A stretch of 64,000 bases of DNA, taken from the NCBI GenBank assembly GCA_026005175.1, contig BPKO01000001.1, positions 868,001 to 932,000 on the forward strand. The letters are read 5' to 3'. Made by a program: the position numbers and the translations under genes. This document shows, piece by piece, positions 5,090-6,805 of this stretch. This DNA is from Candidatus Tectimicrobiota bacterium (lineage in GTDB: Bacteria; Tectomicrobia; Entotheonellia; Entotheonellales; Entotheonellaceae). Below the pieces are notes generated by a model. It did not search any database and was not told where the DNA came from. It saw only the letters and a program-made list of their open reading frames with translations. How positions within the stretch are numbered: position 1 is the stretch's first letter; each line of letters starts with the position of its first letter.

Positions 5090-5131
5090 GCCCGCGTTCC
5101 CGTTTGCTTCCCCTGACGAGGAGACGACCCC

Positions 5132-6805
5132 ATGGCCCGACTCGATGTGCTCCATCCGGTGGCCCAGACGCTCCAGCACCACGTGCCGCCCGCCCCGCGG
5201 CTGGCCGACCTGCGCGGCAAGCGCCTTGGCCTTTACTGGAACATGAAAGCCGGCGGCGACGTGGCCCTGGCGCGCGTCGCCGAGCGCCTCCAGGCCCAGT
5301 ACCCCGGGCTCAGCGTCCGCCAGTACGTCGGTTCGGTCGGCTTCCTCATGCGCCACCTGACCGCCGACGACGCTGACCGCATAGCGCGCGAGTGCGATGC
5401 CGTGGTCGGCACCACCAGCGACTGAGGGTCGTGCACGTCGTGGCTTGTCCACGACATGGTGGAACTCGAGCGGCGCGGGGTGCCTACGGTCAGCTGGACG
5501 GCCGCCCACTTTGTGGCCGACGCCCGGCGCAGCGCCCGCCACTTTGGCTTGCCGCACTTGCCCTTGGCGGTGATGCCCTTGCCCTTTACCAACCAGCCTC
5601 CCGAGCGCATCCGCGCCATGGTGGACGAGGCCTGGCCGCAGGTGGTGGCCGGCCTCACCCAGCCTGTGGCCGATGAGCCGGTGCCGGAACCCCGGGTGCA
5701 GCCGGCCGAGGTGCTCACTTTCGAGGGCAGCGACCTGCTGGCCGCAGCGGCGCAGATGCAGCAGCAGTTTCTCGCCGAAGGCTGGAGTGACGGCTTGCCG
5801 CTGCTGCCGCCCACCCCCCAGGCGGTCGAGGCGATGCTCAAAGGCACCACCCTGAGCCCGGATACCGTGGTGGCCACCCTGGAGCCTGGCTTTGGCCTGG
5901 CCACGGTGGAGAAGCTAGCCATCAACGCGGTGATGGCTGGCTGCCAGCCGCCGCACCTGCCGGTGCTGATTGCCGCCGTGCGCTGCCTGGCCGAACCCCG
6001 CATGTACCTGCGCAACAAAGCCATGTCCACCGGGCCGCACGCGCCGCTGCTGCTCGTCAACGGGCCGCTGGCCAAGACCCTGCGCCTCAATGCCGGCTGC
6101 TGTGCCTTGGGGCCAGGAGCGCCCTCGTACGCCAACACGGTTATCGGCCGCGCCGTGCGCCTGATCATGATGAACGTGGGCCACACGTACCCCGGGGTGT
6201 CGGACATGGACACCATCGGCTCACCACTCAAATACAGCCTGTGCGTGGCCGAAAACGTCGACGACAGCCCCTGGCCGCCTTACCACGTGGAGAAGGGCTT
6301 CGACGCCGAGACGAGCACGGTGACGGTGCAGTTTGTCTACGGCATGTGCGAGCTGCACGACTTCTCCAGCACCACCCCCGAGCGGCTGGCGGCGGTCTTC
6401 TGCACCGCCATCACCAACGTAGCCCAGGTGGGCACCGGCCTGTGGCTCATCGGCCGGCGTGCCGACCCGCGCTACGGGGTAGAAGAAAAAGAGCACAACC
6501 TGCTTCTGGTCTGCCCCGAGCACGCCCGTCTCTTTGCCGAGGCCGGCTGGTCAAAAGCCCGGCTGCGACAGCACCTCTACGCCAAGGCACGCCTGCCCTT
6601 CGAAACCCTGATGCTCAACAAAGAAGCGCAGGCTTTTGCCCTCGCCCACCCCGAGCTGCAGTGGCTGCACGATTCGCCGCAGACCCTGCTGCCGGTGGTG
6701 GAAGACCCCGAGTGCTTCGACATCGCCGTGGTGGGGGGTGCCGCCGGGCGCGGGGCGTACTTTTATGGCGCCGGGGCGCCGGTAACCAAGCCCATCGAGC
6801 CCTGA
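5132..6805 (+). CDS. UGSC family selenoprotein (TGA read as selenocysteine)
   Basis: An opening of 97 residues (MARLDVLHPVAQTLQ..., DAVVGTTSD) meets TGA at 5423-5425. The same frame then runs on without another stop for 459 codons. Reading TGA as selenocysteine gives the motif U-G-S-C at residues 98-101, the signature that names the UGSC family. A hairpin of the bacterial SECIS kind follows directly. The UGSC domain ends near residue 180. A long C-terminal region (about 210-557) follows, with FLAEGWSDGLPLLPPT and several conserved-looking cysteines (AGCCALG, GMCELH); I do not recognise its function. The U/C pair suggests redox or thiol chemistry, which is inference. The alternative is two genes, but the downstream part has no good ribosome site at its first ATG (5456), which lies inside the UGSC domain. 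AGGAGACGACCCC precedes the start. Confidence 0.82.
5437..5455 (+). promoter_or_regulatory. Candidate bacterial SECIS element
   Basis: GTCGTGG (5437-5443) and CCACGAC (5449-5455) form a perfect 7-bp stem around CTTGT. The loop starts 18 bases after the TGA, within the distance at which SelB-binding hairpins lie. Opening the top G-C pair puts G at the loop start, as in known bacterial SECIS loops. Confidence 0.65.

Follow-up and report, generated by a model that had tools for sequence, protein, structure and literature searches.

Sequence comparison indicates that the window, by which we mean the whole analysed stretch of 64,000 nucleotides from Candidatus Tectimicrobiota bacterium, almost certainly encodes a selenoprotein, and not a pseudogene, at positions 5132-6805. 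The gene is a further member of the UGSC family and its type of fusion has already been reported, so that the gene itself is not of a new kind. Unexpected are a probable kinship of the family with GrdB, an unclassified and apparently obligate partner domain, and a very high copy number in one Chloroflexi MAG.

The UGSC gene and its signals

The reading frame runs from an ATG at position 5132 to position 6802 (557 residues) and contains a single in-frame TGA at 5423. This codon (5423-5425) is followed by GGG-TCG-TGC and would thus spell U-G-S-C with selenocysteine (Sec) as residue 98; from there 459 residues lead to the stop codon at 6803-6805. The first-pass annotation had described this in-frame TGA, the three codons after it and the 459 further codons, all of which we confirmed on the window sequence. 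Standard ORF calling splits the gene into an ORF of 97 amino acids (5132-5425) and one of 449 amino acids starting from an ATG at 5456. The features are as follows.

5118-5123, plus strand: GAGGAG, a Shine-Dalgarno-like match to the consensus upstream of the ATG
5132-6805, plus strand: complete predicted selenoprotein gene, 557 residues, Sec as residue 98, ordinary TGA stop at 6803-6805 (sequence; full-length homologs at 25 loci)
5132-5692, plus strand: N-terminal UGSC domain, PF24696 at residues 5-176 (Pfam E 1.2e-39), probably remotely homologous to the Sec domain of GrdB/PrdB (hhalign E 3.3e-7)
5423-5425, plus strand: predicted Sec codon, in-frame TGA, the U of UGSC (TGA in all aligned homologs except locus L050, which has TGC)
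5437-5455, plus strand: SECIS-like hairpin, 7-bp stem, loop CTTGT (pairing and covariation in the family; broken in the Cys homolog L050)
5690-6802, plus strand: C-terminal partner domain (C-domain) of about 350 residues, without a family or fold match in Pfam/NCBIfam, PDB sequence and PDB fold searches, found fused to or beside UGSC

The assignment to the UGSC family, proposed from the motif, was borne out by the PF24696 match, which scored 136.6 bits against a gathering cut-off of 25. The equivalog cut-off of NCBIfam NF041046 was missed (101.5 versus 125 bits), and the window copy differs from the family described by these two models in its C-terminal extension of 370 residues. Since 2008 UGSC has reportedly been counted among the most abundant selenoprotein families in the environment, with no function assigned to it.

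Decoding of the in-frame TGA

The genome from which the window derives encodes SelA (638 bits), SelB directly downstream of selA as seen in the ORF translation, a tRNA-Sec (selC) with anticodon TCA, and SelD, whose gene has an in-frame TGA of its own (contig C9:120631-121554, locus L056). The presence of selA, selB, selC and selD had been predicted from the window alone, and all four were indeed found. A further fused UGSC gene is located about 9 kb from selD, and LarC- and LarB-like ORFs were recognized by eye near the selA-selB-tRNA-Sec region (L055 16279-18165).

A search of 84,980 species genomes yielded homologs at 25 loci. The TGA-bearing homologs are 30-80% identical and are distributed across phyla, with the motif variants UGSC, UGGC, UGTC and UGAC. 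The aligned codon is TGA at all homolog loci except that of Phytohabitans suffuscus (L050), where it is TGC and the motif reads CGSC. In this Cys version the downstream hairpin is broken. SelA was not found in the Phytohabitans genome, and no Phytohabitans UGSC copy among the matches listed contained a TGA. The alternation of U and C at residue 98, suggested earlier as a check, therefore occurs, and it does so in a genome without SelA; the homologs read through the TGA, and it was ending at it that had been named as speaking against a selenoprotein. The Phytohabitans chromosome (G041) carries five Cys-type copies of UGSC and C-domain, two of which are separated by about 9 kb; these copies might serve as useful Sec-free models for expression.

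We read the gene as one for a selenoprotein because of the Sec machinery, the TGA shared across phyla, the covarying stem described below and the Cys homolog in a genome without SelA. That the TGA is a true stop, separating two genes or marking a decayed one, would agree with the two ORFs obtained from standard calling, but it is highly improbable and was rejected, since diverged homologs keep the TGA, the Sec machinery is complete, the stem is conserved, U changes to C where SelA is missing, and the second ORF would start inside the UGSC domain without its active site.

A conserved hairpin downstream of the Sec codon

The perfect 7-bp hairpin with a G-bearing loop, noted before as beginning 12 bases after the TGA, is exact: positions 5437-5443 pair with 5449-5455 around the loop CTTGT, starting at the 12th base. 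Bacterial selenoprotein genes are expected to have such a SECIS-like stem-loop immediately downstream of the UGA, its loop containing a G. The folding energy of the window hairpin is unremarkable on its own (z -1.4 versus shuffles) and is not lower than that of synonymous recodings of the same stretch. Across 42 distinct homologous sites, 89.5% of the stem cells pair, versus 56% after synonymous recoding (maximum 64% in 300 trials), and pairing falls to 20-51% when the 3′ arm is slid. Compensatory cells numbered 20, versus 4.9 in shuffles, a control that is weakened by the relatedness of the sequences, whereas the synonymous and slide controls preserve it. The evidence for the hairpin is thus a signal of the family only, and the energy in the single window is uninformative. 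Scoring it as a SECIS element had been proposed in the first-pass annotation; the stem proved conserved with covariation across the homologs, but no Rfam model, including those for SECIS, matches it.

The C-terminal partner domain

The C-terminal part of about 350 residues, described from the start as unfamiliar, has no match in Pfam, NCBIfam or PDB. Searches with 30 C-domain members at E-values up to 10 returned nothing from Pfam and NCBIfam beyond single chance matches, and a C-domain profile found no sequence match among PDB chains. An AlphaFold2 model of the domain (pLDDT 81) gave at best a Z of 4.7 and a Foldseek E-value of 0.012 against PDB folds, below the noise level stated by the tool. 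The best of these weak resemblances were to class I fumarases and cyclic amide hydrolases, and at such values this likeness was set aside as noise. Invariant residues of the domain are D, G, T, A, N, M, P, R, L, E and W, and its two best conserved cysteines are replaced in some members. As its cysteines are not strictly conserved, the C-domain need not be redox-active, and a pyruvoyl group derived from one of them is unlikely. A relationship to GrdE/PrdA was rejected because no similarity was detected.

C-domain and UGSC domain co-occur in seven genomes, that of the window included, and at every locus surveyed for pairing the two are either fused or located within a few hundred bases of each other. 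In the Chloroflexi MAG described below, 111 of the 116 UGSC domains are paired with a C-domain, four domains being counted twice in these figures. A tree of 69 C-domains contains four arrangements, namely the two fusions N-C and C-N and the two orders of separate genes, N then C and C then N, with at least 12 changes between them. Since fusion, fission and change of order recur on this tree, UGSC and C-domain would in all likelihood form an obligate two-part enzyme. The fusion to an unfamiliar domain noted in the first-pass annotation is therefore real, but it is not peculiar to this gene: the C-domain is a near-universal partner of UGSC, either fused or adjacent. In the genome of the window two of the pairs are frameshifted, in the C-domain of the copy on contig C2 (L079 6700-8570) and in the UGSC domain of the copy on contig C6 (L080, around 86.4-87.0 kb), due to either decay or assembly error. 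No relatives were found on viral contigs.

A fusion of UGSC with a domain named 'Unknown_1' appears in the Global Ocean Sampling survey of Zhang and Gladyshev (2008, Fig. S1A; PMC2398784). As described there in the relevant passages, it occurs in aquatic bacteria and resembles the window gene in joining UGSC to an unknown domain, one that has at least one conserved Cys; separate adjacent genes go unmentioned in those passages. Going by this description rather than by alignment, 'Unknown_1' is likely the C-domain found here.

Probable relationship to GrdB and PrdB

A direct HMM match to GrdB/PrdB (PF07355) was not obtained in Pfam, and TIGR01917 matched only with an E-value of 0.12. This hint led us to compare UGSC and GrdB/PrdB by profile-profile alignment. 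Using GrdB/PrdB-like proteins of related genomes, hhalign aligned Sec on Sec over 98 columns, with a probability of 93% and an E-value of 3.3e-7. The score was 52, and 34 with the motif removed; the 200 column-shuffled targets scored 13.3 ± 2.9 (maximum 27.6), and the reversed target scored 19.4. Both families have UxxC at the same place, followed by E..G[IV]P and a similar C-terminal helix, but UGSC lacks the N-terminal 200 residues of GrdB. In our view UGSC and the Sec domain of GrdB/PrdB are very probably remote homologs, a kinship detected by profile-profile comparison only. No paper stating this link was found in the literature searched. The tie to this Sec domain, together with the fixed unclassified partner, provides a testable enzyme model for UGSC.

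A thioredoxin-like fold was suggested for UGSC in 2008 (PMC2398784). Thioredoxins of the same genomes reached a score of 12.9 (E 0.22) against the UGSC profile with the motif outside the overlap, and the earlier suggestion appears unsupported by the profiles. PDB neighbours of the modelled N-terminal domain are flavodoxin-, PurE- and Rossmann-like, which does not exclude a thioredoxin fold; the list of Foldseek matches for the full-length protein is likewise dominated by generic Rossmann and flavodoxin matches to this domain.

Expansion in a Chloroflexi MAG

The genome of the window has seven UGSC genes and other genomes have 2-13, in contrast to the Chloroflexi MAG NC_groundwater_644 (G054, JACPQD01, 5.0 Mb), in which we counted 127 UGSC and 147 C-domain matches. 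In the 579 kb examined (L054, L083-L122) there are at least 105 distinct UGxC sites with TGA, and the hairpin stems have a mean of 6.2 bp versus 3.9 after synonymous recoding. The UGSC domains of this MAG have a median identity of 66% to their nearest paralog; eight that are at least 90% identical represent locus L054 counted twice. Stretches of one 350-kb contig carry 20 copies, and stretches of a 69-kb contig carry 14. Because the paralogs are diverged, copies cluster on single contigs, composition is uniform and selA is single, a mixture of strains behind the expansion is unlikely, even in a MAG. A few UGSC-like paralogs in this genome lack UGxC and are neither Sec nor Cys versions (e.g. 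GFGCSGVYTIW; L091, L087, L088, L095, L116), and in one gene the motif is UGTU, a second TGA taking the place of the resolving Cys (L091 10911-11456).

Published maxima of selenoproteins per bacterium are 57 and 63, the latter from PMC13188914, so that the count in this MAG is roughly double the record. This known upper bound would rise with a genome that has more than 100 selenoprotein genes from a single family, and so many copies would run counter to the view that the use of Sec is always sparing.

Gene neighbourhoods

Family-5 solute-binding proteins make up 52 of the 103 neighbouring proteins in the Chloroflexi MAG. By a home-made profile, 84 of 112 UGSC domains have such a protein within 2.5 kb in the same orientation, compared to 5 with one in the opposite orientation, and the density of these proteins is 85 in 579 kb versus 11 in control stretches totalling 400 kb; the examples at L054 are lipoproteins by eye. 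Near the UGSC pairs in the genome of the window we found genes for CoA ligase, biotin carboxylase, enoyl-CoA hydratase, Liv transport and hydantoinase, and a Trx-like gene downstream of the copy on contig C2. Dipeptide transporters, CoA transferase III and MmgE/PrpD are found among the neighbours of the fused subfamily in other genomes. Among the six-frame ORFs, many of which are spurious, no conserved neighbourhood was recognized for this subfamily beyond blocks shared within Rokubacteria. Outside of the Chloroflexi MAG the neighbourhoods are varied, with no single conserved pathway. Since solute-binding, transport and catabolic genes adjoin UGSC pairs, the gene context points to catabolism of imported small molecules, and the repeated pairing with solute-binding proteins indicates where substrates might be sought.

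Proposed function

By analogy with glycine and proline reductase we lean towards a Sec-dependent reductase of imported small molecules, in which the C-domain would replace the pyruvoyl subunit. These reductases encode a pyruvoyl subunit (GrdE/PrdA, PF09338), which was not found in the Chloroflexi MAG or in the genome of the window (a MAG with a completeness of 77%). Nor is the C-domain GrdE-like, and a scheme without pyruvoyl is proposed for these reasons. The 557-residue product would be a cytoplasmic selenoenzyme, with UGA 5423 recoded by the genome's own SelA, SelB, SelC and SelD with the help of the SECIS-like hairpin downstream. The C-domain, in the role of GrdE/PrdA, may bind an imported small-molecule substrate (carboxylate, amide or CoA-linked), which the Sec selenolate, presumably at the N-terminus of a helix, would attack. 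A C-X bond would be reductively cleaved while the U-x-x-C pair becomes a selenenylsulfide, which a thioredoxin-type protein might then reduce again. The reductive cleavage itself we put forward more tentatively than the reductase as such. The chances are evenly balanced that UGSC represents a pyruvoyl-independent class of Sec reductases diversified for many imported substrates, with at least 105 genes in one Chloroflexi genome constituting the largest selenoproteome known.

Two other functions seem unlikely, to a similar degree. UxxC selenoproteins are mostly redox proteins, and with its UxxC motif UGSC might be a general thiol/peroxide oxidoreductase of thioredoxin type, with the C-domain as a regulatory or docking module. 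However, the profile resembles no thioredoxin of the same genomes, the PDB neighbours of the modelled domain are flavodoxin-, PurE- and Rossmann-like, and more than 100 diverged copies adjoining solute-binding proteins are unlike one housekeeping redox protein. Alternatively, Sec might act as a nucleophile on imported small molecules in a non-reductive, isomerase-, lyase- or hydrolase-type reaction, the C-domain being perhaps distantly fumarase- or cyclic-amide-hydrolase-like. This would accord with its best, though weak, PDB resemblances and with invariant residues that include D, N, R, E and W and no Cys; yet those resemblances fall below the level that the tool notes as usual for unrelated folds, and the UxxC pair and the GrdB/PrdB kinship favour redox chemistry.

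Also encoded in the genome of the window is a PrdB-like protein whose gene has an in-frame TGA and whose motif reads UPVC (contig C5:119379-119765, L071), probably a second selenoprotein lacking its usual partner, as GrdE/PrdA is missing from this genome. Genomes of the same family (L067-L069, L073, L074) have GrdB with an in-frame TGA (UGTG or UGTC) adjoining GrdE-type genes.
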